In this document: in pieces, positions 38,259-64,000 of the stretch
How the letters are laid out: the number at the start of each line of letters is the position of its first letter
How positions within the stretch are numbered: the stretch's first letter is position 1
DNA from: Pedobacter arcticus A12
GTDB taxonomy: Bacteria; Bacteroidota; Bacteroidia; Sphingobacteriales; Sphingobacteriaceae
NCBI RefSeq assembly: GCF_000302595.1
Contig: NZ_JH947126.1
Location: 835,223 to 899,222, forward strand
Direction of reading: 5' to 3'
DNA: 64,000 nt
Program-made: the position numbers and the translations under genes
The notes under the pieces: generated by a model
The model's database searches: none
Told to the model about the DNA's origin: nothing
Seen by the model: only the letters and a program-made list of their open reading frames with translations

Positions 38259-39545
38259 TTATATCGATTTTATGAGTGTGTTATCTATCGCTTTCGCTAG
38301 CTTTTCTTCTACTTTATAAGTTTCGGCATAGTGCATCCAATTACTTATCGTATTTAAAACTTCAGCGATTACACCCTCTGGATTACGTATTGAATTTTGT
38401 TTTGCAATGGTTAACAGATCGGCTTTAACAAAATCTTTTCTTTTGCCATTTATACTTAGGTTGTGCTGGCTTACCCATTCACTATCAGGTCGGTATGCGT
38501 AACAAATATCGTACGCTGGTGCTAACTCCCATTTCCCTGTGGGTTCCATCATAAAAGCGAAGTTTTTAGTATGGTCGTCACAGTTGCGGGCGAGTACGTT
38601 AAAAACCATCCGACGGTACATTTCCTCAGCATCGGCATAGCTAAGTTTCAACTGGCGCATCGTTTGGAATAGTTGTTCATAACTGTAGCTGGTAATCTTA
38701 TTGAAATCATAATGCTGTATGGCGCAGAAAGTCTGTACATGCAGTTTCTGATTGCCATTCTTTCTGTCAAAACGCCTGGTCATAAAATGCGCCCTTCCTT
38801 CTTCCTCAATCAAACGGCTTTCCATCATTTTAATTCCCGCATCTTTAGCTATTTTATAATAAGCCATTTCTACCCGACCATAACCATAACTTACTCCAAA
38901 TTGTGAATCGTTTACGCCGTCAAATTTTAAAAGCCAGTGTTCATATCCATTTTCCTGTAACGTCTGTCCCGAACGGATCATCCCTGTTTTATCATTATAA
39001 GCAATGATTGCTTTTGGTCGGGCACCACCTGCTGAAGTTCCCATTTTCAGCACATCCAAAATGACATCCTGCATTTCACGGTCTGTATGGGCTTCAAACT
39101 GTGCTCTACTTTCGGGTAGTTTCATTGTAGTGTCAATCAAGCTAGAAAGCTCCAATGATTGAGAGCTGGCTTTGGTGCTCAGGATAGAAGGTTCAAATTC
39201 TAATGCGCCCATTCCTCGAGTGCCGATAAAACATAAAAGTTCTACTGGATTTAGTGAATTTTCCGGACGTCCGTTGCGGGCAAGCCATATATTGATTAAT
39301 TCTTTTCCATATTTATCAGGCAGGGCATCTGCCAACAATCCCGGCAATCCTTTGAAGGTTGATGTATCTCGTAATTCTGGAAAAGAATAGATACGTGAAG
39401 ACAATGGCATCTTCAACGGGCTTATCTCTATTTTTTTTGCAATAAAGCGTTTTTCATATTCAAAAGAGCCTAATCCCTGAGCTTCATCCCAAGCTACTGC
39501 ACCAATCCTTTCTCCCCATAATTTTATAAAAGCTGTCGTTACCAT
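38259..39545 (-). CDS. hipA: HipA-family serine/threonine kinase toxin
   Basis: A 428-residue full-length HipA. The N-terminal subdomain (about 1-100) has the LPGLLADALPDKYGKELI segment. The kinase core shows GTSAGGARPKA, WLLKFDGVND and the catalytic NCDDHTKNFAF (D near residue 308), then APAYDICYAY. E. coli HipA phosphorylates glutamyl-tRNA synthetase and induces dormancy; the target here is unknown. The start overlaps hipB by seven bases, the normal antitoxin-toxin coupling. Confidence 0.93.
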   Translation of the reverse strand: MVTTAFIKLWGERIGAVAWDEAQGLGSFEYEKRFIAKKIEISPLKMPLSSRIYSFPELRDTSTFKGLPGLLADALPDKYGKELINIWLARNGRPENSLNPVELLCFIGTRGMGALEFEPSILSTKASSQSLELSSLIDTTMKLPESRAQFEAHTDREMQDVILDVLKMGTSAGGARPKAIIAYNDKTGMIRSGQTLQENGYEHWLLKFDGVNDSQFGVSYGYGRVEMAYYKIAKDAGIKMMESRLIEEEGRAHFMTRRFDRKNGNQKLHVQTFCAIQHYDFNKITSYSYEQLFQTMRQLKLSYADAEEMYRRMVFNVLARNCDDHTKNFAFMMEPTGKWELAPAYDICYAYRPDSEWVSQHNLSINGKRKDFVKADLLTIAKQNSIRNPEGVIAEVLNTISNWMHYAETYKVEEKLAKAIDNTLIKSI

Positions 39546-46056: not shown

Positions 46057-46788
46057 CTAAAGAGAAGAGGAAATAAGTTTGGCGGTTTCTTGTAATTCAG
46101 AAATAAGATAACTTTTATCAAAATTAATCAACCTAAAAGATGGCATATATAAGCAAATTGAAGCAATTACTTTATCCTTTTGAAAAACAGCGACAGATAG
46201 GCCGGATATCTGATTCTGAGATTCCTGAATCACATAGTTATCTTTTCTTATCTTCTCTATTTGGGACCAAAAGCCGCTTTTTGTCGCAGCTTCTTTCCAT
46301 ACAGGTAAAGAAGGTAATCCCCAATTCTGCAAATATTTTTCTATTTCGGCATCTTTTTGCACTGCAAGTAATAACCTTCCTGTTGAGGATTCATAAGCAG
46401 GTTTATCTATTGAAGAAGTCGCCTGAATCTCCTGCTTGCTTTTGGTTTGATGTAATAATATTCTTGAGCTTTCTTTAAGCACAGCTAAAGAAGCATTTTC
46501 ATTAATTTTTTCTGTAAGTTTTTCTAAAAGTGGCTTAGCAACTTGAATCAAATCTTTTTTATAACCATCGAAACTTGTGAGCTGGTAAAGCTTTTTACCT
46601 AATAAGTAACCTTTCTTATCGTCTAATTTCTCTAAAAAGCCACGCTTAACCATGGCTTTAATAATATTTGCGCAAGTACCTGTATTTAACCCAACATTTA
46701 TAGCTATATCACTAAAACTGCGTGGTATTTCCGGATCAATTGCTAAATACTCAAGTATATCAAAAGATCTATTTATTGCCTGTTGCAT
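46057..46788 (-). CDS. IclR-family transcriptional regulator
   Basis: A 243-residue regulator. The N-terminal winged HTH (about 1-65) contains FSDIAINVGLNTGTCANIIKAMVKRGFLE. The C-terminal effector domain (about 80-240) has YESSTGRLLLAV and the ISGLSVAVF segment. IclR proteins sense small organic acids or sugars and often repress catabolic operons. It lies 290 bases upstream of the SDR-uxuA operon on the same strand, and a palindrome sits at that operon's start site. Confidence 0.9.
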   Translation of the reverse strand: MQQAINRSFDILEYLAIDPEIPRSFSDIAINVGLNTGTCANIIKAMVKRGFLEKLDDKKGYLLGKKLYQLTSFDGYKKDLIQVAKPLLEKLTEKINENASLAVLKESSRILLHQTKSKQEIQATSSIDKPAYESSTGRLLLAVQKDAEIEKYLQNWGLPSLPVWKEAATKSGFWSQIEKIRKDNYVIQESQNQISGLSVAVFQKDKVIASICLYMPSFRLINFDKSYLISELQETAKLISSSL

Positions 46789-51347: not shown

Positions 51348-54300
51348 TTAATAAATAAACTTGGAGTTATACCTGTATTTTCCCGTAGCTAATGTAATTG
51401 TATAAACTCCCCTAATCAGATTACTAATATTTAACGGTATCGTATTGTGACCTTGTACTAAAGAAGTATTCACACTTAAAACAGATCTTCCATACATATC
51501 ATTTATACAAATGGCTGATGATGAAGTTGAGAGATCATTAGCAAAAAAAGACACAACTAATTGTTCAGCAGCATTAACATGTATCTTTAATTCATTTTTA
51601 GCGTTAGTCACATTGGCAGCTATTACCTTAGACAAAAAATATTTCCCATTATTATCAAATTGTTTTAACTGATAATAATTAGCACCAGGAAAAGGGTTAT
51701 AATCTGTAAAAGAATAGAATTTAATCCCTTTAGAGTCACCTCCACCCGGTACATCACCGATAATTTCAAATTCCGAATCTTTTGCTTTTCTTAACACGCC
51801 AAATCCGTAGTTGTTTTGTTCTGATGCTGTTGACCATTTCAACAACATAGAAGAACCATTGCCTGTAATGTTAAAAGATTGAAGAGAGACGGGCATAATA
51901 CTTTGTTCTTCGACATGTCTTATGATAATATTCTGGATATAACCGACAGCATGTTTCGTTGATCCAATTATTGAAGACCTTTGACCTATAAAAACACAAG
52001 CATCTAATTTATTATTAACCGCTAAATTATAACTAGGTATATTGTTTGTTGTAATTCCACCTATAACAGTAGTTAATGGTATCCCGTTGGCCCATATATG
52101 CAAAGCATTGGAAGCAACTGTATATGTTACAGCATCGCGTACATAGTTTTGCTGTTCCGCAGAGTTATTGCAATAGAACTCCATATTATAGGCTGTACCT
52201 TGTGTAAACTTTAGACCGTTCAATACCCGCTCATAGGTTGTTCCTGCAATCTCTTCTCCTATTCCTGACCCTTTATAACAGTATCTGAATTCTGGATTAG
52301 AATTAAAAGGGGAATTTTCAGGTATCTGCCATCTTACAGTGGCAAAAAAATCTGCAAAACCTGTAGTAGACGAATTGGCCGGAACGCCACTGTTTTGATT
52401 AATCAACTGGTTTGCGCCATTGGGGTTGACTCCATCTGTTCGTCCTATAGCAAACTGCCAGTCCATTTCTTTCATAGAACTGTTTTGTTCAAAAGTAATA
52501 GTGTAAAAAAAACTGGCCACTGATGTTGCAGTTTCGATATCGAACATAGAAAATTTGGCTACTCTCCCCGCCTTCGAAGAAACAAATTTTAGTGCAGGTG
52601 ATGCTCCATATTTAACCAAATGCCACTCTCCCTCACCTGTGGGAGTTGGGGTGTTTTTGTTAGCAATTCGTATTTTGCCGGATGATGGAACAGGCATAAA
52701 TCCTAGGGAAGAAGGCATGCTTGTAATAGAGGAGCCTCCCAGCTCGGTAAAACCCAGACTACCTACCTGCCCAGCACCTGTATTTGCACCAAGATTATAC
52801 TCCCATTCAATCGCTGTTTTCTCCCATAAACCTTTCGCATATCTGGGTTTTGAAGCAACTAAAGAAACACTACTGCCCAACATATCACCCAAAGGCATAA
52901 TAAAGTTAAGAACCTCGCTCTCCGAACCAGCATAACTTAACGACACTTGTATTGAACTTTGAATTTGTGCTGGATCTGATAGAGTGACTTTTACTTTTGG
53001 TTTACTGTAATCTACCAGCAGAACACATGCTTTATCTACCGAAATGGTAAGTCCTGGCTCAATCGTGATATTTCCTGGGTTATAAAAAACAATACCCGCT
53101 TGCCTCAACAAAACATGACTCACTGCTTGCAAAGAAGCGGTATTTGCATGTATTGTTACAGGCATATTAGTGGCATAAGCATTAGTTTCTGCTACACTTT
53201 TGTTTGGTAAAACTATATATTCATAGCTTGCGTTAGATGGTGCATTTCCATGATCTATCCATAGTTTAAAAATATCTGCACTTACGGTTTGATTTACCTG
53301 GTTTTTGTTAATAGTGTACCAGTTACCGCTTTGCATATTGGTTTTCATTTGAACAGCTGTATTGTTTGCAAAAACATAACCGGTATTGTCGTGGTGTACC
53401 CATCTCGCATTAGGATAGGTATTTTCTTCCTTTGGGATGATATTGCTATCCACTAGAACAGCTGTTTTTAAATACGATTGATTTATGGTTGTGGTAGTGG
53501 ATGCGCCACTGTAAGAAGAGTTTATGCCTGCACCCAGACAAATCATCTCGCCATTCCACAAAAAATTGGTTTTTTTGGCTTCAATATCTACATTTACCCC
53601 ACCAATCACAGTGTCTTTTTGCAAGTGCATAGCAGTAATACCGTTAATACCATCAGACACACCACCTACAAAACTGGTAGACTGGCTATGATAAACACTT
53701 GTTGAAGGCCATATCACAGGCACCGCAGGGTTGGTGACACCTGGTATTTTTGTCCAGTCCCAAACTCCAAAAATATCGTAATACTCATTCGTATTCCTCA
53801 TAATGGTTGTAGCGCCAAACGGCAGCCAATAAGCTAAAAGATTTTCACTATTTAGTCCTTCCGTTCCCACCGTTCTTGCTGAGCACATTTTTACGCCAAT
53901 AAAAAGATTCTCCCTCCGATGTGTCATATAATCGGCTCGGTAAAAAAAATTATTTCCCATGATACCGGTTATGGTTCCGGTAGGATTATTCAGGTGATTG
54001 TACATTAACTGGTATTGCGCAACTCTTTCAGGATCCACGCTTTGCATCCTAATTAACGTGGATTTCAATCCCGAACTCGATATTCCCTGATCGCTTCTAC
54101 GACTAATATTTCGTCCCACCGTACTAAAATCATACGTCTGTCCATAAGTCATCCACTGATCTCCATTCAATAAGAAATCACTTAACAGCACTACGTTTTC
54201 GGTGCTAAAGCCAACCAATGTAAGCCCCCTTATTAAGTGCATATAGTAACTAATTGTATTTATTAAGGATTTACCATACCCGCCATTATACATTTGTAAC

Positions 54301-54986
54301 CTATGCACTAAGAAAGAGTAATCTTTTTGTACTCCCTCTGTATGCCCCGGCTGGATAGCTAGTTGTGTTGCCATTTTGTTTATCCCCTCCTGCAAAATTG
54401 CTTGATCTTTCTCTATCACCCCGTGATGTATCAGATTGCGGGCTATCCAAACAGCATTAGTAAGTGTGCGAAGATGGTAATTTGTTGGAAATGACAAATA
54501 TTTATCACACCCTGTTTTTATAACAGAATCCCAATCTGCACCGCTAAAATCATTTTTAACTAAAATCAGTATTTTGTTGATATGATCCTGCATGGCTATT
54601 TCATTATCATACCAGTTACTAGAATAGGGCTGAGGAGTGCGATTATACCAGTAAAGTAATCCTGCCTTAATTTTACCTTTTAGGATAGCATTGCCATAAA
54701 ACGAATAACTTGTTTTTTTTAATGCCAATGCCATGCTTGCAAGTCTTTCCCAATGTTTAATAGGCTGCCAACCACCAACAAAAGTATGCTGATCGTAGTT
54801 TATATCTGTCCAGCTTCCATTTGTCTGTTGGCTATCCATATATCCCTGAATAACTAACATTCCTAAAGGAACAGGTGCTACATAATCGGCATATAGTCTG
54901 TCATATAAAACATCATAATCATCTGCCTTTACCGTTGAAGATAATAGCAATGGAAATAAGAATATGAATATGATTTTTTTCATCAA
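51348..54986 (-). CDS. PL8-family polysaccharide lyase with a new C-terminal module and T9SS signal
   Basis: A 1212-residue secreted protein. Signal peptide about 1-21. The PL8 alpha-toroid (about 22-390) has TLTNAVWIARN (catalytic Asn region) and KDYSFLVHRLQMYNGGYG (catalytic His/Tyr region), followed by MTHRRENLF. The PL8 beta-sandwich runs to about 700. A ~300-residue module (about 716-1025) repeats elsewhere in this window and is rich in Trp/Tyr; landmarks are WEYNLGANTGAG, GFMPVPSSG, MDWQFAIGRT and MEFYCNNS. A T9SS sorting domain ends the protein (PLNISNLIRGVYTITL). PL8 enzymes cleave hyaluronate, chondroitin or xanthan by beta-elimination. Confidence 0.92.
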   Translation of the reverse strand: MMKKIIFIFLFPLLLSSTVKADDYDVLYDRLYADYVAPVPLGMLVIQGYMDSQQTNGSWTDINYDQHTFVGGWQPIKHWERLASMALALKKTSYSFYGNAILKGKIKAGLLYWYNRTPQPYSSNWYDNEIAMQDHINKILILVKNDFSGADWDSVIKTGCDKYLSFPTNYHLRTLTNAVWIARNLIHHGVIEKDQAILQEGINKMATQLAIQPGHTEGVQKDYSFLVHRLQMYNGGYGKSLINTISYYMHLIRGLTLVGFSTENVVLLSDFLLNGDQWMTYGQTYDFSTVGRNISRRSDQGISSSGLKSTLIRMQSVDPERVAQYQLMYNHLNNPTGTITGIMGNNFFYRADYMTHRRENLFIGVKMCSARTVGTEGLNSENLLAYWLPFGATTIMRNTNEYYDIFGVWDWTKIPGVTNPAVPVIWPSTSVYHSQSTSFVGGVSDGINGITAMHLQKDTVIGGVNVDIEAKKTNFLWNGEMICLGAGINSSYSGASTTTTINQSYLKTAVLVDSNIIPKEENTYPNARWVHHDNTGYVFANNTAVQMKTNMQSGNWYTINKNQVNQTVSADIFKLWIDHGNAPSNASYEYIVLPNKSVAETNAYATNMPVTIHANTASLQAVSHVLLRQAGIVFYNPGNITIEPGLTISVDKACVLLVDYSKPKVKVTLSDPAQIQSSIQVSLSYAGSESEVLNFIMPLGDMLGSSVSLVASKPRYAKGLWEKTAIEWEYNLGANTGAGQVGSLGFTELGGSSITSMPSSLGFMPVPSSGKIRIANKNTPTPTGEGEWHLVKYGASPALKFVSSKAGRVAKFSMFDIETATSVASFFYTITFEQNSSMKEMDWQFAIGRTDGVNPNGANQLINQNSGVPANSSTTGFADFFATVRWQIPENSPFNSNPEFRYCYKGSGIGEEIAGTTYERVLNGLKFTQGTAYNMEFYCNNSAEQQNYVRDAVTYTVASNALHIWANGIPLTTVIGGITTNNIPSYNLAVNNKLDACVFIGQRSSIIGSTKHAVGYIQNIIIRHVEEQSIMPVSLQSFNITGNGSSMLLKWSTASEQNNYGFGVLRKAKDSEFEIIGDVPGGGDSKGIKFYSFTDYNPFPGANYYQLKQFDNNGKYFLSKVIAANVTNAKNELKIHVNAAEQLVVSFFANDLSTSSSAICINDMYGRSVLSVNTSLVQGHNTIPLNISNLIRGVYTITLATGKYRYNSKFIY

Positions 54987-55026
54987 ATGGCCGATATGGA
55001 ATAAGGCTGTTCAGTATAAATACTAT

Positions 55027-56544
55027 TTACAGTATAAATTTAGTACTCAATTTATTTTCTGACGTAACTAAAGATGCAGTATATATGCCTTTTACCAAGT
55101 TGTTCACATTTAAGCTGAGGGTATTATACCCTTCTTGCAAAGGTGTATTCAGATTTAATAGTATTTTTCCAGATATATCAGTTATGATAATAGTAGAGGA
55201 ACTTATTAGTTTTTTCGAAAAAACGGATGCCATTAATTTTCCTTCACTATTCAAATAGATTTTCAACTCTTGATTTTCTAAAGAAGAACTTAAAGCCACT
55301 ATATTAGAAAGTGAGAATTCGCCATTATTATCAATTTGTTTTAGCTGGTAATAATTAGGACCTGATGAAGGGTTAAAATCGGTAAATGAATAGGTATTTA
55401 TTTCTGTTGAATTACCTGCACCTGCCACATTACCTATAACTTTAAAATCTGAAGTCTCTGTTTTCTTTAGTACATCAAATCCTGCATTATTTTGTTCTGA
55501 TGCAGTTGACCATTTCAACAATATTGATGATCCTTTACTTGTACCGTTGAATGATCTTAAAGAAACTGGCAATGGAGTTTGAACATGGTTTATCTCGATA
55601 TTCTGAATATAGCTAGTAGAGTGCTTTGTTGATCCGCTTATTGACGTTCTTTGCCCGACAAAAACACACGCGTCTAATTTATTGTCCCGTTCTAAATTGT
55701 AACCTGGGATATTAGCTGTTGAACTACCACTTATACTGGCAGTTAATTGAGTTCCGTTTGCCCATATATGCATGGAATTAGAAGGCAATGTATATGTAAC
55801 TGTATTACGCACATATTTTTGCACCTCAGAAGAGTTATTACAATAAAACTCCATATCGTAACTAACACCTTGAGAAAAGGTGATACCATTCAATACTCGT
55901 TCATATGTGGTTCCAGCTGTTTCTCCGTTTCCTCCTGACCCTTTATAGCAGTATCTAAATTCCGGATTTGAATTTGCAGGAGACGCAACTGGTATCTGCC
56001 ATCTAACAGTAGCGAAAAAATCTGGGAAAGACTGCGTTGAAGGGTTGGCAGGGATACCACTATTCTCATTATTTAACTGGTTTGAAGCTCCGTTAGTTCT
56101 TCCTATAGCGTATTGCCAATCCATCTCTGTCATTGAACTGTTTTCTTCAAAAGTGATCTTGTAAAAAAAACTGGCTACTTGAGTAGCATTGGCAATTTCA
56201 TACATAGAAAATTTAGCTACCCTTCCACTCCTTGAAGAAATAAATTTAAGTGCGGGCTTTGACAAATAATTTTTTAGATACCATTCACCTTCTCCTATAT
56301 CTACTGTAGTTTTGTTCGAAAGTTTCACCTTTCCAGAAGGTGGAATAGGCATGAAACCTACTGTTGCAGGGGGTGCTGAAGTGGTGGCAACAGTACCTAT
56401 ATACCCTGATCCGTCTATTGTGCCATTACCTGTTCCTGCACCAAGGTTATACACCCATGAGGTTGAAGCCTTTTCCCATACACCTTGTGCATTGGCAAAG
56501 CTTGTACCTGTAATAAATAATAAAAGTAAAAGTTTTGTTTTCAT
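55027..56544 (-). CDS. Secreted stand-alone copy of the ~300-residue module with T9SS domain
   Basis: A 505-residue protein. Signal peptide 1-20 (FANAQ), module 21-320, then a T9SS type A region (about 321-505). The module is the closest relative of the one on PL8, sharing long identical stretches such as AGTTYERVLNG and FRYCYKGSG. No catalytic domain is present. The protein would be displayed on or released from the cell surface, perhaps binding the same polysaccharide as the lyase, whose gene begins 40 bases downstream. Family name unknown to me. Confidence 0.85.
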   Translation of the reverse strand: MKTKLLLLLFITGTSFANAQGVWEKASTSWVYNLGAGTGNGTIDGSGYIGTVATTSAPPATVGFMPIPPSGKVKLSNKTTVDIGEGEWYLKNYLSKPALKFISSRSGRVAKFSMYEIANATQVASFFYKITFEENSSMTEMDWQYAIGRTNGASNQLNNENSGIPANPSTQSFPDFFATVRWQIPVASPANSNPEFRYCYKGSGGNGETAGTTYERVLNGITFSQGVSYDMEFYCNNSSEVQKYVRNTVTYTLPSNSMHIWANGTQLTASISGSSTANIPGYNLERDNKLDACVFVGQRTSISGSTKHSTSYIQNIEINHVQTPLPVSLRSFNGTSKGSSILLKWSTASEQNNAGFDVLKKTETSDFKVIGNVAGAGNSTEINTYSFTDFNPSSGPNYYQLKQIDNNGEFSLSNIVALSSSLENQELKIYLNSEGKLMASVFSKKLISSSTIIITDISGKILLNLNTPLQEGYNTLSLNVNNLVKGIYTASLVTSENKLSTKFIL

Positions 56545-56563
56545 AATTATTTCATTAAGGTTA

Positions 56564-56590
56564 ATTATTATTATTATTATTATTATTATT
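56564..56590. repeat. (ATT)9 microsatellite
   Basis: Nine uninterrupted ATT units in the leader of the stand-alone module gene at 55027-56544, about 20 bases before its start codon. Slippage could change leader length. Confidence 0.95.
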
Positions 56591-56637
56591 AAAAGGATTT
56601 ATTTAGCCTAATAAATTGCGAAAAAGCTAAAATCATA

Positions 56638-57594
56638 TTACTTCAGTGGATTTTGAACTTGGTTAACTAAGAAATCACTTATATAACAAACAGCAGCTTT
56701 TGCTGGTATACTTGTGGAGCCTTGAAATACAAAAGCATCTAGTTTAAGATTAGGAACAAGTTGATAGCTGCCAATATTCGGAGACCCATTAGCTGTCAAC
56801 TGCACACTATTAACCCATATATGAAAGGAATTAGCTGGAACAGCATAGTCAACTTTATTTCTTAGATAATGTTGATCTCCTGAAGAATTATTGCAATAAA
56901 ACTCCATATTATAAGTGCCCCCCTTTGAGAAAGTGGCGCCATTAAGTTTACGCTCATAGGTATTTCCTTCTGATTCCCCATCTGCTTCTACTCCTCTGTA
57001 ACAATAAGAAAAAGGAATTTCACTACCTTTTGCGGCCCACCTTAAGGTTGCGAAAAAATTAGGAAAACTTGTTTTAGATGTATTTCCAGGTATACCAGCA
57101 GTGGTATTATTTAATTGATTAACACGTCCATTTGTTAATCCAATACCAAAACGCCAGTCCATTACATCTACATTTGCATCAGCAAAAGATATCTTATAAA
57201 AAAAACTACTAACTGGAGATGCATTACCTATATTATATAGTGAAAACTTAGCTACCCTACCTGCCCTTGAAGAAATGAATTTTATAGAGGCAGACGACAA
57301 ATAATTTTCTAAGCTCCATTCTCCTGTACCTACAGGTGGTGTTGCTATATTTGAAAGCATAGCACTTCCTGATGGAGGATAAGGTAAAAAACCTTGATTA
57401 GAAGATGCAGTTGAAACTCTATTCCCACCTGTTGTTTCGGTAGTATAGCCTATTCCTGAATTTAATACTCCTGTACCGGTATTAGCTCCTAAATCGTATT
57501 TCCATGTTGTAACAGGTTTTGTCCATACACCCTGTGTTTGGGCAAAGGCAAATTTGCCAATAAAAATTAATAGTAATAGAGGTTGCAATTTCAT
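56638..57594 (-). CDS. Secreted stand-alone copy of the module without T9SS domain
   Basis: A 318-residue protein. Signal peptide 1-18 (GKFAFAQ). The rest is a single module (about 20-312) that shares WKYDLGANTGTG, GFLPYPPSG, RAGRVAKFSLY, MEFYCNNSS and NSFHIWVN with the other copies. The sorting domain is missing, so it would stay in the periplasm or be exported another way. It lies 93 bases upstream of the T9SS-bearing copy. No catalytic motif is seen. Confidence 0.85.
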   Translation of the reverse strand: MKLQPLLLLIFIGKFAFAQTQGVWTKPVTTWKYDLGANTGTGVLNSGIGYTTETTGGNRVSTASSNQGFLPYPPSGSAMLSNIATPPVGTGEWSLENYLSSASIKFISSRAGRVAKFSLYNIGNASPVSSFFYKISFADANVDVMDWRFGIGLTNGRVNQLNNTTAGIPGNTSKTSFPNFFATLRWAAKGSEIPFSYCYRGVEADGESEGNTYERKLNGATFSKGGTYNMEFYCNNSSGDQHYLRNKVDYAVPANSFHIWVNSVQLTANGSPNIGSYQLVPNLKLDAFVFQGSTSIPAKAAVCYISDFLVNQVQNPLK

Positions 57595-57849
57595 ATTATA
57601 TTCGTTTAATTATTAAGCATGAGACATATAAGCATCGCTTAGTAATCGCATATGATTTATATTTATATATACACCTTAACAAGCTCAACGGGTGAACTGC
57701 CATGCTTATTTCTAATTTAAAAATTGAAAGAGATACGATGTGATATGAATCAGAAGTCCTAAATAGCCAGCACACAACTGGATTTAAAAAAATTTAGAAA
57801 AGAGGATATTCCTAATAATAGTTTTTTGCTTTTATAGCGTAGGTCTTCC

Positions 57850-58884
57850 TTACCTATTTCTGTTACTAAATCCGTCATCTATTACTTTAATAGCAACAGA
57901 TATTCCGGAAGATACATCTGGTTTATCCTGTAAGGAAGGATTTGTTCATTATCCCACTTGTTCTGGTCAATCATAGGCTCATTAAAATATTCATCATCAA
58001 AAATATAAACCTCTTTCCAGTCTGTCCACTGCTTTTCTTTAGTGACTTGCAGAATTTTCAATTTCCCCCGAATATTTCACAATTCTATCAAATGGATCTT
58101 TTTCTATAAAAATCAGATATAGATTACTGTTTCTATCTGCAAGCAACTTAGGACGATTACCAATGGCCGGAATTTGAAATTCTTTCAACTTGCCTTTTTT
58201 ATCCTGATAGTAGTGAAAATAAGCTGAATTTTTTAATCTCGCCCAAGACGGTTCTGCTCCCTCTTTCTTTTAAATGATACATTACAACATGGAATATACC
58301 GTCACGGTTAGAAACCTGAGCCTGACTGTTCATCAGTCCCCATGTCCTGTCAGGAATTTTAAGTTGAATACCGGGAGTAAATGTGTCAACAATTTTATTA
58401 GTACTTGCGCTGGCGACCTTCTCATTTTTATAATTATACCAGTTATTACCCTGATCGGGACTGTAAATATGGCATATATCCCTACTTCCGAGACCATTCC
58501 CCCCCTTCCCGCCAACACCATGAAATATGTAAATTACCCCTATTATCGTAAGAAAGACTATTTTCATAAGGACTACGACCACTGCTACCATGAACGTATA
58601 GCCCCAACTTTTGGATCGAAACGAGAGCTTAACGATTTTGCACTATTAATTAATACCTGTTTATAACATCTGATTGCGTTACCGAAACTGCAATACATCA
58701 TAAATCCCAAATCTTGGGTACCTGTGTTGTATTGTTCTTTTTCTAGCAACGCGAGCTTGTTTAGAGCTTCATTGTGCAATATCGTATCGCCACTGTTTTC
58801 GTGTAAATAAAACAAAGTAACGGTATAGAAACTACTGCTCTTTTTTTGATTGCAACCTGTGATAAAGCTTACAATCAACAACAT
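57850..58884 (-). pseudogene. GH88 / BNR_4 chimeric pseudogene
   Basis: Two broken genes are fused. The 5' part (58884-58585) encodes a lipoprotein start and the GH88 unsaturated-glucuronyl-hydrolase segment EKEQYNTGTQDLGFMMYCSF..RFDPKVGAIRSW, then a stop. The 3' part is a BNR_4 beta-propeller protein whose pieces appear in shifting frames: SPYENSLSYDNRGNLHISWC, then GNGLGSRDICHIYSPDQG, IPDRTWGLMNSQAQV and VVMYHLKER, then GAEPSWARLKNSAYFHYYQD, then TKEKQWTDWKEVYIFDDEY, then LQDKPDVSSGISVAIKVI. At least four frame changes are needed and the middle of GH88 is missing. A few indels could be assembly errors in homopolymers, but the deletion is not explained that way. Confidence 0.88.
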
Positions 58885-58971
58885 AAAACAAATGGTCGGA
58901 TCATTTTTATGATTTTACTATCAATAATAACATGGTCGATTATCTCGCATACTTTTATTAAATCTTTAATT

Positions 58972-60243
58972 TCATAAAAGCTTTTTGATTTCTCTCATTT
59001 GTTCTTTTTGAAGCTTTCTAACATAATCTCTCGATTTTTCTACTTTCTTTATGGCTTCGGGATAATCATTATGAATATTTAATACGACAGCTGTTATTTG
59101 GGATGCAGGCGTTTCATCCATTAAAAAATACCATTCGCCTAAACCTATATCTCTCCACATCTGTCCTTTCCTTGTATCTGAAGGCTGTTTGATATGAATT
59201 GCTGGTACACCATTAGCAATGGACATTATAAGGGAATGAGGTTCTACACCAATAACGATTCTTGATTGGGCATATACTGAAGACGCTTCGTCAGGAAGCC
59301 AGAAACTATCTCTCCAAACAACGTTCTTTTTAATATCTTCCGGTAAAGGGTCGACTAAAGTTTCTTTAGAAAATTCTACCTGGTAAATTACTTCGGGACA
59401 AACAAGAACTTTTAATCCTGTTTTCTCTACCCATTTAATGATTACTTCCCTAAGCTTTTCGGCATCCTCTTTTCGGTATAATTCGGAAACTTTATCTTTC
59501 CAAATATCAAGTTCGGTGGGGATATTTCCTTTAATTTTCCAGTTTGGTGTATATCTAAGACGTGGAATCACACAGATAAATTCCTTTTCTTTCAAACCAA
59601 CAGATTTGAGATATGCTCCCGCTTTATCTGCATTATGGATACTTATTGCAAATGTAGAGTCTGGACCAAACTTCTGTACTGGGCATCTTAATTTCAGGTT
59701 TTTTAGATACTTTAAGGATTCTGTATCTCTGCAGTAAAAGAATGATGCATGATTGATGAGTTCCTGTAATTCTCCATCTACTTCATTTAACGATACGCCA
59801 TATATACCAAATGGCTTTTTTGTTTCGTCCCACCATTCCTGCAAATTTTTTTTGGCGGTTACATAAGGGCCGGAACTATGAAGTATGAAGTTACATTCAT
59901 CAAAAGCTTTTTGTAATTCCAAAGAGCGCTTTCCATCAATAGAAGTTTTACTACTCAGAACAGTCACTTTGGGAAAATATTTTTTTATTAAGGCATCAAC
60001 ACCCCTATCCAACAAATTTGGCCATAACACTATTTCGACCTCCGGGATATACTTTTCTATCAAAGCAATAATACCAAAAGAATGTGCAATGTCTCCGATG
60101 TTAATGGTTTGCCATCCCGAACGAAGCAATATCTTTTGCTTTTTACCTCCATTTATTGTAGCGATTGCCTGAAAAACAGGAGCCAATATTCCCAAGACTG
60201 TCATATACGATGCCTGTTTTAAAAATAATCTTCTATTTTTCAT
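58972..60243 (-). CDS. Tat-exported polysaccharide pyruvyl-transferase-fold protein
   Basis: A 423-residue protein. The N-terminus MKNRRLFLKQASYMTVLGIL has a twin-arginine motif (R4-R5-x-F-L-K) and a hydrophobic stretch, so export by Tat in folded form is predicted. The body matches the polysaccharide pyruvyl-transferase family: INIGDIAHSFGIIALIEKYI, FILHSSGPYV, FFYCRDTESLKYLK, FGPDSTFAI and a C-terminal VIGVEPHSLIMSIANGVPAI. Ordinary members are cytoplasmic and use phosphoenolpyruvate. An exported one in a degradation locus is unexpected; the activity is unknown. Confidence 0.82.
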   Translation of the reverse strand: MKNRRLFLKQASYMTVLGILAPVFQAIATINGGKKQKILLRSGWQTINIGDIAHSFGIIALIEKYIPEVEIVLWPNLLDRGVDALIKKYFPKVTVLSSKTSIDGKRSLELQKAFDECNFILHSSGPYVTAKKNLQEWWDETKKPFGIYGVSLNEVDGELQELINHASFFYCRDTESLKYLKNLKLRCPVQKFGPDSTFAISIHNADKAGAYLKSVGLKEKEFICVIPRLRYTPNWKIKGNIPTELDIWKDKVSELYRKEDAEKLREVIIKWVEKTGLKVLVCPEVIYQVEFSKETLVDPLPEDIKKNVVWRDSFWLPDEASSVYAQSRIVIGVEPHSLIMSIANGVPAIHIKQPSDTRKGQMWRDIGLGEWYFLMDETPASQITAVVLNIHNDYPEAIKKVEKSRDYVRKLQKEQMREIKKLL

Positions 60244-60273
60244 AATAAATTTAACACCTATTTCAAAAAAAAG

Positions 60274-62217
60274 TTAATTAACCCTTTTGTAAGTCACTGA
60301 TATTTTTGCATACTTTACTGGCTCGTTTAATCTTATGGCAAGTCTTGTATAGGGTTTTGGTGCCTCAGTAATTGTTTCGGACACTATTGTATAAGCTGAA
60401 GATGATTGAATAGAAACTATCAATTTTTCCTTTATCCCCTGAAGTTCTATTTGGTTTTTTCCTATTTGCTTCCATTTAGCTCTTGTTATGATTACAGTTT
60501 CATAATCTTTAGACTCAGTAAACTCAACTTCGTCTCCTACTGTGAGGTATCCATCATTTTCCCGGTTATAGGTAAAGCTTCTACATAATTTTTTAAGCTC
60601 TGGAACAGCATACGCAGACGCAATATCCATTACAACCTGGTCTTCTTTATCAGTAAAATCATTTTTCAAAATAATGGCTTTTGACTGAGCTCCTGTAGAC
60701 TGCTCTTTTCCTGCAACTAGCGGAACTGGATGCCCGTAAGAAGCAATGGTTTTAATAGTATAACGTTTTGCTGTAAAAGTTTTAGAGGTATAGGTAGCAA
60801 GTCCAGGATCACCGCTTAGCAATTCTTTATCTGCAACTAAAGTATACGAACCCAAATCGTTATGATTATGCAATTCCTGATTATGACCACCTTTAAAAGT
60901 AACGCCTAATTTACAAGAAGAACCTTCTTCTGGGCGTACAGTAATTACACCTGCTTTATCAAAATAAGACCTGATTCCTGTTTTATGACTTTTATCTCCT
61001 GATGGGTTGGAATAAGTAGCCGCAGTAGGAAAAGCCATATAAATGTTTTGCAATGGTGGATTAAAATTATCATCAAAAGTATAGGCACCATAATTTTTTA
61101 ACCCAAGATTAAGTGTACGGTTCAAATAATACATCATAAATTTGATAGGTTTTTCATTCATTTTGCAATCTCCAATGGTTGGAAATACATTATTCATGAT
61201 CTCAATATTTGGGACATAATGTGCGATCTTGTCTATTTTTGGATCATTAAAAAGATCTATTTTATTATTGGTAGCTTGTAAAAGGGTTTCGCGAAGCAAA
61301 ATATAATGCTTAAAACCATAGTTGTAATAACCTAAACCCTCGGTACAGTATCCATCATCCAGAAATCCTGCAAGCGTGTTTTTTATATATCTTTCTGCAA
61401 TAGCAACATACTTAGCTCGCTCATTTTTATCAGGAATAACGGCTAGCGCAGCACCTGTTACTCCCGCGATTGTAACGGTATTATGATTACCATCTGTATT
61501 AGTTAAAGAAACAAACTGTTCGTTGCCTGTATCATGACCTGTAATTGCTGGTGTAAGTACTTTTGTATAAAGTGCTTCCATCGCTTTTTTCCTTAATTCT
61601 GGTTTGATTTTATCTCCCAATAGATACAACGCCTCCGCAATATCATGCGCATAGCATGACGCACTAAGATGTATCGTATATAATGTTCCGTTGTAATTCG
61701 TCAGCTTGCGATCTTCTGCCGGGAAATTCCACGATTTCTGATTAATAAGATCTACCAGAGCCGCCTCAATTCCGGGCATATACTTACCATCATTTTTCAG
61801 GCACTCTGCCCAAACCATGGCACCAAAAACCACTATTCTTTTTCTGACCAGCATTTTAGAAGTTTCCGAATCGTTTGAATTAAAGAAAGACATGTAAATT
61901 TCATGCGTCAATTCTGGCAACGGACTTAAAATCGCAGCATCAGCATCTGCAATTAACCTGTCGAATTTACCGGAATTTAATAATTTATCCCATGCAGAGC
62001 GATTGGATGCAGGTTCGCCCATTCCTTTGGGTTGTTCAGGCAACATGGCGGATATTTCTTTCAGCCTTGCTGGATCCAATGAATATGTTGACTTTATTCT
62101 ATATTTATTAATCGGCGCTTTATTTGTCTCTTGTGCAGAAACATTACAAACAGAAAAATAAGCAATGGTTGCTACTCCAATTAATTTAGTTACCACGCGG
62201 GTAGTTAATTGCCTCAT
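60274..62217 (-). CDS. Heparinase II/III-family polysaccharide lyase
   Basis: A 647-residue secreted lyase with a signal peptide (about 1-29, NVSAQ). The N-terminal alpha-barrel (about 50-400) has NTDGNHNTVTIAG and GLGYYNYGFKHY, the sites of catalytic Asn/His and Tyr. The C-terminal beta-sandwich (about 420-647) has ELHNHNDLGSYTLVADKELL and GDPGLATY. It would cleave uronate-containing chains by beta-elimination. There is no T9SS domain, so it is probably periplasmic. The sequence end resembles the start of the right-edge gene, suggesting paralogues. Confidence 0.9.
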   Translation of the reverse strand: MRQLTTRVVTKLIGVATIAYFSVCNVSAQETNKAPINKYRIKSTYSLDPARLKEISAMLPEQPKGMGEPASNRSAWDKLLNSGKFDRLIADADAAILSPLPELTHEIYMSFFNSNDSETSKMLVRKRIVVFGAMVWAECLKNDGKYMPGIEAALVDLINQKSWNFPAEDRKLTNYNGTLYTIHLSASCYAHDIAEALYLLGDKIKPELRKKAMEALYTKVLTPAITGHDTGNEQFVSLTNTDGNHNTVTIAGVTGAALAVIPDKNERAKYVAIAERYIKNTLAGFLDDGYCTEGLGYYNYGFKHYILLRETLLQATNNKIDLFNDPKIDKIAHYVPNIEIMNNVFPTIGDCKMNEKPIKFMMYYLNRTLNLGLKNYGAYTFDDNFNPPLQNIYMAFPTAATYSNPSGDKSHKTGIRSYFDKAGVITVRPEEGSSCKLGVTFKGGHNQELHNHNDLGSYTLVADKELLSGDPGLATYTSKTFTAKRYTIKTIASYGHPVPLVAGKEQSTGAQSKAIILKNDFTDKEDQVVMDIASAYAVPELKKLCRSFTYNRENDGYLTVGDEVEFTESKDYETVIITRAKWKQIGKNQIELQGIKEKLIVSIQSSSAYTIVSETITEAPKPYTRLAIRLNEPVKYAKISVTYKRVN

Positions 62218-62237
62218 AAATGGTTTTATTGGTTATT

Positions 62238-62291
62238 ATTATTCTGAATACACCGGAACTCCTATAATGGGTGAATGCTATTCAGAATAAT
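62238..62291. promoter_or_regulatory. Inverted repeat in the leader of the heparinase-like lyase
   Basis: ATTATTCTGAATA (62238-62250) and TATTCAGAATAAT (62279-62291) form perfect 13-base arms with a 28-base loop, starting 21 bases upstream of the ATG. It could be an operator or a leader hairpin; there is no T-run for a terminator. Confidence 0.55.
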
Positions 62292-62354
62292 TTAAACGCA
62301 GCTCGGGTCATAAATATCAACTTCTTTATATTTTAAAATATTTATAAGTATGTT

Positions 62355-62402
62355 TCCATGTAGAGTCCACGTTTAAATATAAAAATGTGGACTCTACATG
62401 GA
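62355..62402 (-). terminator. Terminator downstream of the right-edge lyase/module gene
   Basis: A 16-base perfect stem (TCCATGTAGAGTCCAC at 62355-62370 with its complement at 62387-62402) and a 16-base AT loop, 44 bases past the stop. It separates this gene from the heparinase transcript. Confidence 0.78.
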
Positions 62403-62445
62403 TAAAAAGCAGACTTTCTATTGCTTCATATGGAAATTGGTACGA

Positions 62446-64000
62446 TTACTTTATAAATTTAATACTTGTCTGTTTGTTATCTTTTAACAGAGTTGCCACA
62501 TACACACCTTTCGGAATAGAGGACGAATCAACATTAAACTGATTATAACCTGTTATTAACGTATAATTCCTATCTAATAAAATTTTACCAGAAACATCTG
62601 TTATCCTCAAAGTAGCTGTCCCTTCCGATTGAGAGAATACCATAGCGTTTAAAAGTTCGGTAGCATCCATAAAGACAAAAAAGTCTTTATAATCACTCAT
62701 TTTTATAGATAGCACCTCTGATTCTGTATAAATTCCGTCCGCGTCTTTCTGTCTTACCTTATAATAATTGGCCCCATTAAATGGATATTTATCTGTAAAA
62801 ATATACTGAGAACTTTCAGAAGTGCCAGCTACCGCATCTATTTCACCAATGGGATGAAAGCCAGCAGAAGCATTCTCTGCTCTTAATATTTCATAAGCAT
62901 CATCATGCTTTCCAGAGGTTGCTTCCCATTTTAAACTTACTTTCTCGTCTTCTCTTATGATAGAAAAGTTTTTAAAGAGGAATACCGGTGTATCTTGAGC
63001 AGCATCAAATTGTAAATTACTTAATCTCATTTCAGCAGAAATATTATTACTATTTCCTGTTTTACTGGTTTGACTGGTAAATACAAAACCATCAATTACT
63101 TCATCTGCGGGTAACTCATTGGCCAGAAAATTTGTAGAACCGATGTAGGTCAGCTGTTCATCATTTACCCAAATATGATAACTTCTTGCAGGAACAGCGT
63201 ATTCTGTTGCTCCTTTTATATATTTTTCGGATGCAGAAGAGTTGTTGCAATAAAATTCCATGTTATAGGTACCGCCTTTCTTAAAAAAACCAGAGTTAAT
63301 ATCAATAAAAGTGGTGGTTGCGGAAGCGTTGGCTTTATCTCTGAAAGAAAAAGTATATACTGCGGAGGCCATCAACCACCTAAAAGCAGCAAATATCTCT
63401 GGACGGCTGGCGGTTCCAGAACCAGTAATACCACTTGTACCGTTGATCTGGTTCGCAGCAAGCGTTGTACCTGCTGTTTTGCCGATTGCGAATTGCCAGT
63501 TTGCATCTGTAGTAGTACTATCATTAAATGTGAGTTTATAGCTTATTTTTGCTATCGCCGTAGCTACATCAATATCATACATCGCTAACTTGGCAACTTT
63601 CCCGCTATTAGAAGAAGCAAAACGTATTGCCGACCATTCGTTTGTTCCGGTAAGCCACCATTTACCCTTTCCTGCACCATCGGTGATTCCACCTAATCTC
63701 ACACTTCCAGATTCCGGATAAGGCATAAAACCCTTTACACCACCAAAAGTTGTTGTATTTACTATAGTTCCCTGTGTAAATGGTGCACCGCCTAATATCC
63801 CATCACCTGAATTTGTTCCCGAGTTATAATTCCATTGTGTAGTTGGCCGTAACCAATTTCCAGGGATGCCAGCAATGAAACCTGGCTTGCGAAATGTTAG
63901 TGTAATTTCCCCTGCAAGAATTGGTATGTTTAAAGCAATACCTAAACGTGTATATGGCAATCCTCCTTCTTCAGAGATTACTTCCGGAGTAATGGTAAAA
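62446..64000 (-). CDS. Lyase C-terminal end fused to the ~300-residue module and T9SS domain (5' end outside window)
   Basis: The frame stays open to base 64000, so the gene begins to the right of the window. The first visible residues (TITPEVISEEGGLPYTRLGI and FRKPGF) match the end of the heparinase II/III protein encoded at 60274, which ends PKPYTRLAIRL..SVTYKRVN, so the missing part is probably a paralogous lyase. The module follows: WNYNSGTNSGDG, GFMPYPESG, NWQFAIGKTAG, NMEFYCNNSS and YHIWVN. A T9SS sorting domain ends the protein at SIKFIK. This copy is the most divergent of the four. Confidence 0.88.
   Translation of the reverse strand, partial: FTITPEVISEEGGLPYTRLGIALNIPILAGEITLTFRKPGFIAGIPGNWLRPTTQWNYNSGTNSGDGILGGAPFTQGTIVNTTTFGGVKGFMPYPESGSVRLGGITDGAGKGKWWLTGTNEWSAIRFASSNSGKVAKLAMYDIDVATAIAKISYKLTFNDSTTTDANWQFAIGKTAGTTLAANQINGTSGITGSGTASRPEIFAAFRWLMASAVYTFSFRDKANASATTTFIDINSGFFKKGGTYNMEFYCNNSSASEKYIKGATEYAVPARSYHIWVNDEQLTYIGSTNFLANELPADEVIDGFVFTSQTSKTGNSNNISAEMRLSNLQFDAAQDTPVFLFKNFSIIREDEKVSLKWEATSGKHDDAYEILRAENASAGFHPIGEIDAVAGTSESSQYIFTDKYPFNGANYYKVRQKDADGIYTESEVLSIKMSDYKDFFVFMDATELLNAMVFSQSEGTATLRITDVSGKILLDRNYTLITGYNQFNVDSSSIPKGVYVATLLKDNKQTSIKFIK

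Follow-up and report, generated by a model that had tools for sequence, protein, structure and literature searches.

Modules of about 300 residues, shared by several secreted proteins, were studied in a 64,000-nucleotide stretch of the Pedobacter arcticus A12 genome (contig NZ_JH947126.1), here called the window, and in related loci of other genomes. Plain coordinates are positions in this stretch, while handles such as L009 denote retrieved module loci, L009 being the one at the window's right end. That end is occupied by a minus-strand gene cluster of polysaccharide type, transcribed in the order 1401-aa lyase, 647-aa lyase, pyruvyl-transferase-like gene, BNR_4-like piece, 318-aa protein, 505-aa protein and 1212-aa lyase of family PL8 (Table 1). 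Four module copies were found where an earlier note, made from the letters of the sequence, had placed them: in the PL8 protein, in the proteins encoded at 55027-56544 and 56638-57594, and in the lyase cut by the right edge. Chance similarity was considered and ruled out, because BLASTP among the four proteins gave E-values from 2e-55 down to 0, some of the alignments including the shared linker and tail. The locus holds five copies and not four, the 1401-aa protein carrying two. The fifth lies at the N-terminus of this protein, outside the window, and the order of parts is therefore module, PL33-like lyase, module, linker and tail. The five modules are pairwise 34-64% identical, and a profile search found additional copies in other loci of the same genome. 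Of the six motifs described earlier, five occur in all four copies of the window, and the first, W.Y..G..TG.G, does so once S is admitted beside T, the right-edge copy having WNYNSGTNSGDG. The YCNNS site had been called constant; the fifth copy has YYNNS, and C is present in about half of 88 copies, the first N of the NN pair being N in the entire weighted count.

Type A C-terminal sorting domains of the type IX secretion system (T9SS) were found on the PL8, 505-aa and right-edge proteins. The TIGR04183 model scored above its cut-off in the right-edge protein and just below it in the other two, whereas Por_Secre_tail stayed just below cut-off in all three; a hidden Markov model (HMM) of our own was seeded with the tails of these same proteins. 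No sorting tail was detected in the 318-aa protein with Pfam, NCBIfam or our tail HMM, and its sequence stops right after the module. Thus one stand-alone copy has T9SS targeting and one lacks it, as first described, with the reservation that the 505-aa tail falls just below both curated cut-offs. The statement that these two proteins contain nothing else holds for the 318-aa protein, but the 505-aa protein has about 115 extra residues and the tail. Relatives of these residues in the retrieved loci were all T9SS-tailed proteins (61 of 61).

Table 1. Features of the gene cluster at the right end of the window (positions in the 64,000-nucleotide stretch; ORF, open reading frame).
Feature	Position	Strand	Evidence and remarks
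PL8 lyase (chondroitinase AC-like) with C-terminal module and T9SS tail, 1212 aa by ORF	51348..54986	-	Pfam Lyase_8_N, Lyase_8, Lyase_8_C above cut-off
PL8 catalytic part, residues 53-680	52947..54830	-	Pfam ranges
Module copy 1, PL8 protein residues 717-1027	51906..52838	-	Profile match E 5.6e-151; copy is part of profile seed
T9SS sorting tail, PL8 protein residues 1143-1211	51354..51560	-	Por_Secre_tail and TIGR04183 just below cut-off; own tail HMM (seeded with this tail)
Stand-alone module protein with T9SS tail, 505 aa	55027..56544	-	
Module copy 2, 505-aa protein residues 19-325	55570..56490	-	Profile match E 1.9e-157; copy is part of profile seed
T9SS tail, 505-aa protein residues 445-504	55033..55212	-	Por_Secre_tail E 1.2e-5, TIGR04183 E 1.1e-4, both just below cut-off; own tail HMM
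Stand-alone tail-less module protein, signal-peptide-like start, 318 aa, immediately upstream of 505-aa gene	56638..57594	-	94-base gap to tailed partner
Module copy 3, 318-aa protein residues 20-318	56641..57537	-	Profile match; AlphaFold model m80301eb5114a begins one residue earlier
3' part of 1401-aa PL33-like lyase with two modules	62446..64000	-	Full gene L009:2669-6874, extends beyond window
Module copy 4, C-terminal copy of 1401-aa protein	62992..63867	-	Profile match E 1.5e-131; copy is part of profile seed
T9SS tail of 1401-aa protein	62452..62634	-	TIGR04183 E 1.8e-7, above cut-off
Second PL33-like lyase, 647 aa, without module	60274..62217	-	Best PDB matches 8r75/8r6z, E 1.6e-24
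Pyruvyl-transferase-like protein, leader looks exported (by eye)	58972..60243	-	PF04230 E 7.9e-21
130-aa BNR_4-like ORF	58199..58591	-	Match confined to positions 170-251 of 272 in the BNR_4 model

The module had not been recognised as a named family, and the searches agreed with this: its regions were unmatched in Pfam, NCBIfam, PHROGs, PADLOC and the PDB sequences. The Pfam copy held models up to 2025, carbohydrate-binding module (CBM) families such as CBM96 included, and gave no family match to the module regions of the four proteins or to ten copies, for which only chance-level matches were recorded (the best, Sialidase N-terminal, at E 0.036 in one of the ten). NCBIfam of June 2026 was likewise without a match in the module regions of the four proteins, as were PHROGs for three copies and PADLOC for one, and profiles of 5 and 48 copies found no credible match among PDB sequences. 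A hit covering the full module, which the earlier note had proposed to look for, was thus found in neither Pfam, NCBIfam nor the PDB sequences. A viral fold library returned distant matches, mostly to unnamed or phage proteins, with one named as concanavalin A (ConA)-like, and distant BLASTN against plasmids left the two stand-alone genes unmatched. No account of the module was found in titles and abstract openings of the literature, where coverage is thin for subscription journals. The family appears undescribed in the databases and literature searched, CAZy standing outside that comparison. It might be an ordinary member of an existing CAZy binding-module or X-module family beyond the libraries compared; CAZy does give X numbers to such unassigned domains, according to the accessible part of one report (PMC10916295), and both dbCAN and CAZy lie outside those libraries. 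Given that no module region matched Pfam, CBM96 included, or NCBIfam, we regard such membership as improbable.

Structures were predicted by AlphaFold from two founder sequences with the same ten sequences as input. The 318-aa protein was modelled as all-beta, with a mean predicted local distance difference test (pLDDT) of 80.7, a predicted template modelling score (pTM) of 0.85 and one low-confidence stretch at 19-37, and a Pedobacter homologue as nearly all-beta (pLDDT 82.3, pTM 0.86). Foldseek results comprised the best 50 of 1368 and the best 50 of 1637 matches. For both models they included lectins, lectin-like domains of sialidases and clostridial toxins, PL7, PL14 and PL18 lyases, GH16 and calreticulin, with E-values from 4e-6 to 8e-4, probabilities of 0.84-1.00 and sequence identities of 6-14% among the matches listed. 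The module is thus predicted to be a ConA-like two-sheet jelly roll, related distantly and at superfamily level. On its strands, conserved polar or aromatic positions alternate with hydrophobic ones; in the numbering of model m80301eb5114a they are K98, R167, 180, E213, Y215, N217, Y225 and W242, position 180 being R in most copies and C in the modelled one. This alternation suggests one conserved exposed face.

The module could itself be an enzyme, from a ConA-like family of lyases or hydrolases that would be new, in which case the stand-alone proteins would be small enzymes and the fusions two-enzyme proteins. PL7, PL14, PL18 and GH16, which are among the Foldseek matches listed, use this fold, K, R, E, N and Y are conserved on the strands, and several loci have multiple copies. 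However, no histidine is invariant among the module copies (H240 is present in about 61%), and the catalytic set of PL7 and PL18, R-Q-H-Y, was not recognised in the module when conservation was judged by eye. The enzymes that it is fused to or lies beside, described below, are also very different (GH5, chitin-type and exonuclease-like proteins among them), with no common cleavage chemistry evident. An obvious active site was thus not recognised from sequence conservation and fold matches, and we consider a catalytic module improbable.

Among 301 genomes sampled from the family to which the window belongs, the profile search found the module in 21, that of the window included. With a broader profile, 11 of the 396 genomes sampled from the class were positive and 4 of the 198 sampled from the phylum, the own genome being counted in each and one other in both. 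In these surveys the number of candidates scored per genome was capped at 6, 7 or 12, and the copy counts are lower bounds. A scan of genome contigs gave two named loci, both from Pedobacter. In more distant genomes the module lies in the N-terminal part of proteins with PKD, LTD or fn3 domains, with T9SS tails, or with nothing recognised (eight scanned). Fused partners were PL8 of the Lyase_8_N architecture and a PL33-like lyase in the window, PL8 with Lyase_N/Lyase_catalyt domains, which we take to be chondroitinase-ABC-like (L051, L057, L063), Chondroitinas_B (L053), DUF4955 with a Pect-lyase_RHGA_epim match (L052, L061, L062, L065), Alginate_lyase below cut-off (L058), GH5 (L021, L069) and an exonuclease-like domain (L115). 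Fused copies without a recognised enzyme were those of L054, which has a sub-cut-off DUF4957 match, L056 and L107 (fn3). The proposed link to lyases is borne out by the PL8, Chondroitinas_B and PL33-like fusions, but is too narrow in view of the GH5, DUF4955 and exonuclease-like ones and of loci with GH20, GH18 and GH92. In L115 and L120 several module proteins, among them the one fused to the exonuclease-like domain in L115, were observed beside large ORFs; these loci may serve nucleic-acid or phosphoester utilisation.

Co-location with polysaccharide enzymes was counted in the 21 positive genomes, where 89 of 90 module matches gave 55 loci, the remaining one being a 41-aa frame with stops. 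From the enzyme lists, 1 of 120 GH20 and 2 of 37 GH18 matches were left out as below the Pfam cut-off, as were 3 of 74 matches to PF07940 (heparinase-II/III); two of these three were below cut-off, the window's right-edge lyase included, and the third, in genome G108, lies more than 1 Mb from any module locus there and leaves the counts unchanged. A PL8, GH20, GH18 or PF07940 gene was present within 15 kb of 37 of the 55 module loci, against 4.3 expected by random placement (PL8 at 18 loci, GH20 at 24, GH18 at 4 and PF07940 at 10). GH43 loci of the same genomes served as control for other polysaccharide loci, 150 of 224 GH43 matches being listed. PL8 or GH20 was near 33 of the 55 module loci but near only 6 of 93 GH43 loci; the Fisher value of this comparison overstates independence, because orthologous loci were counted separately. 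Among the GH43 matches listed (150 of 224), none was near a module locus.

Since loci of glycosaminoglycan, chitin and heparinase type dominate, N-acetylhexosamine was considered as a single shared ligand. This was dropped as a general claim because one PL8 of the window locus is close in sequence to xanthan lyases, and because partners of GH92, fucosidase, exonuclease-like and alginate-lyase-like type also occur. Ten scanned proteins of seven loci outside the 37 (L106, L107, L109, L114, L115, L118, L119) were GH92, esterase, fucosidase, fn3, LTD, efflux, major facilitator superfamily (MFS) and exonuclease-like proteins, which one substrate class does not explain.

A quick tree was built from 88 copies in 86 proteins, with support from the SH-like approximate likelihood ratio test (SH-aLRT) and no bootstrap, and its deepest forks are weak. 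The HMMER bias filter had hidden the module in L099, L101 and L102, and an unfiltered rerun gave 93 module proteins; the seven outside the tree all come from distant genomes and were left out by the bias filter, by an E-value above 1e-20 or by a length below 180 residues. The five copies of the window's locus formed one clade with 99% SH-aLRT. Further clades joined five copies of L054 with one of L119 (98%), nine copies of the GH5-type loci L021, L022 and L069 (97%), and six copies of L115 and L120 with single ones of L106 and L116 (99%). The nearest relative of the 49 testable copies was in the same locus for 10, in another genome for 39, and in no case in another locus of the same genome. 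For 37 of the 49 the best identity within the locus exceeded the identity to the genome's other loci. At the level of sequence the copies are thus grouped by locus, not by architecture. Grouping by architecture (fused, tailed, tail-less) was tried and rejected: the labels cluster more than shuffled ones, yet the starred branches force each label to have changed at least 10 to 12 times, the tail-less one at least 10, and architecture has therefore changed repeatedly. Locus-wise grouping is what a locus-specific ligand would predict, although local duplication alone would also contribute.

For 20 of the 22 tail-less stand-alone copies, orthologues of related genomes included, a T9SS-tailed gene comes directly after on the same strand, at a distance of -85 to 242 bases (median 30), and 15 of these 20 followers also carry the module. 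A tailed gene came next for 34 of 381 non-module genes of the same loci, and 26 of the 34 precede a tailed module gene. Both counts were unchanged when the HMMER filters were removed. The two exceptions, L054:13052 and L119:8225, are close relatives. As a separate observation, one clade (L105, L110, L111, L117, L121) has tail-less modules of 271-289 aa, the gene after each encoding a T9SS-tailed protein of 493-901 aa in which no module was detected, and heparinase-II/III genes lie within 15 kb of these loci; the 880-aa tailed partner in L117 had no PDB match.

The lyases of the window locus give hints at its substrate. Both heparinase-II/III-like lyases had their best sequence matches among PL33 structures, the 1401-aa protein with 8r73 at E 8.3e-36 and the 647-aa protein with 8r75, and weaker matches were to a PL35 chondroitinase and others. 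The structures 8r73, 8r75 and 8r6z were deposited as PL33, for which hyaluronan, heparosan, chondroitin and gellan are named as substrates in the accessible part of the source (PMC11848413). The module-bearing PL8 had chondroitinase AC as its best PDB match (E 6.8e-86), followed by xanthan lyase (1.6e-36). A further PL8 outside the window (L009:8335-10719; G000:C2:903334-905718), without a module and adjoining a GH88-like gene, is closest to xanthan lyases (E 3.7e-172, against 1.9e-91 for hyaluronate lyases and 1.7e-79 for chondroitin AC lyase), which points to a xanthan-like substrate. This PL8 and the GH88-like, GH3, esterase and pyruvyl-transferase-like genes were the reason to consider such a polymer, and no sulfatase was found among the cluster proteins scanned. 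By these similarities, xanthan or a comparable glucuronate polymer with pyruvyl and acetyl groups would be roughly as probable a substrate as a glycosaminoglycan.

Two PF04230 pyruvyl-transferase-like proteins were observed in the locus (58972-60243 and L009:6932-8215), with Tat (twin-arginine translocation)-like leaders RRLFLK and RRSFIR, the motif being judged by eye; the former had no PDB sequence match. Pyruvyl transfer is normally cytoplasmic, and exported homologues beside lyases in a degradation locus are therefore odd. The BNR_4-like ORF is probably the remnant of a longer gene. Leftward the cluster continues with a SASA esterase, GH3, a DUF2334 protein, UxuA, an extracytoplasmic function (ECF) sigma factor, an MFS transporter and an RraA-like protein, and with ORFs at 46057 (regulator-like) and 44978 (short-chain dehydrogenase/reductase-like), both named by eye. 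Rightward, past the window, are the second pyruvyl-transferase-like protein, the PL8, the GH88-like protein and a DUF5017 protein, and farther on ORFs resembling SusD, SusC and FecR by eye. A gene for a HipA-like kinase (PF07804, PF13657) lies left of the cluster at 38259-39545.

The suggestion of the earlier note that the module binds polysaccharide as part of a surface kit fits the ConA-like fold, the lyase fusions, the co-location with polysaccharide enzymes, the locus-wise evolution and the T9SS tails; binding itself we infer from these. With moderate confidence we lean towards a secreted, non-catalytic family of putative glycan-binding modules with a ConA-like fold, deployed in polysaccharide loci in three forms. 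The module would have been duplicated inside a polysaccharide-utilisation locus (PUL) and would serve there fused to a polymer-cutting enzyme, as a surface protein anchored through its T9SS tail, or as a tail-less secreted protein whose gene directly precedes that of a tailed one. All forms of one locus would bind the same polymer, and enzyme and substrate would be held together at the cell surface. Several observations weigh against such a role. Firstly, TM-scores among the Foldseek matches listed did not exceed 0.46 when scaled by query length or 0.51 by target length, with root mean square deviations mostly above 5 A, and only the general fold is thereby supported. Secondly, 18 of the 55 module loci had none of the four enzyme families within 15 kb, 12 of the 49 testable copies were not more similar within their locus than to another locus of the same genome, and loci of related genomes are non-independent observations. 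Thirdly, the most strongly conserved positions are common to loci with very different enzymes (chitin-type, glycosaminoglycan-type, GH92 and exonuclease-like). A site for the substrate would hardly be expected to behave in this way, and the pattern would fit better with a structural role or with one ligand, other than the substrate, common to all.

The module might instead serve docking or scaffolding independently of substrate, binding a common cell-surface component or other copies and so assembling T9SS-exported enzymes; polar positions that are strongly conserved between loci whose substrates are unrelated would agree with this. The T9SS tails, present by definition on tailed stand-alone copies and also on many fused ones, the tailed gene directly after the tail-less copy, and the distant PKD, LTD or fn3 proteins without a recognised enzyme (eight scanned) would do so as well. 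In a generic dock, however, the copies of one cell should resemble each other, whereas none of the 49 testable copies was nearest to another locus of its own genome, and the module is present in just 21 of the 301 family genomes. We therefore hold docking to be rather unlikely. About as doubtful is an extension of the glycan-binding reading, by which tail-less and tailed proteins would form a two-component surface glycan receptor, the tail-less copy, which lacks a sorting signal, being placed at the surface through its tailed partner, and the enzyme-attached, anchored and free copies of each locus evolving as a set matched to one another. If it were true, the module would be a new modular binding platform reprogrammed by Bacteroidota for each polymer. 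The gene order itself raises a testable question, namely how proteins without a sorting signal might function at the surface of T9SS bacteria. Should the module bind the polymer of its locus, its profile and alignment would help, at family level, to predict which substrates unassigned Bacteroidota loci act on, and the CBM families already described would be joined by a new binding platform.

Glycan-binding modules that occur in polysaccharide loci as enzyme appendages or as free proteins are already known as a kind, and the module can be compared with four systems. It shares with the ConA-like lectin/glucanase superfamily the all-beta predicted fold and the Foldseek matches listed, but had no credible sequence relationship to it in Pfam and PDB searches. 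TtX122 of Teredinibacter turnerae (8q28, 8q29, 8q2a), which was among the Foldseek matches listed, is likewise an unassigned jelly roll in extracellular carbohydrate-associated multidomain proteins. It differs in its 9-13% identity, in being part of redox proteins and in its length of 231-242 residues against about 300, and its three entries were not returned by module-profile searches of PDB sequences. In the accessible part of its report, X122 has distant similarity to fungal Cip1, and TtX122 gave no clear binding or activity in the tests described (PMC10916295), which calls for caution in inferring function from fold. CBM84 comprises the xanthan-binding modules of xanthan lyases, accessory on PL8 enzymes of the xanthan route, as far as the accessible part of the source goes (PMC10881899). 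Our module is similarly an accessory on a PL8 enzyme, but it had no Pfam or PDB sequence match to any CBM, and in this locus the xanthan-lyase-like PL8 is the one without it. Bacteroidota PULs typically have surface glycan-binding proteins and appended CBMs, and the module proteins resemble these as non-enzyme secreted proteins among SusD and enzyme genes and as domains fused to enzymes. Unlike them, one homologous module is found both free and enzyme-attached in the same locus, its tailed copies have a T9SS tail instead of a lipid, and the tail-less copy is paired with a tailed one.

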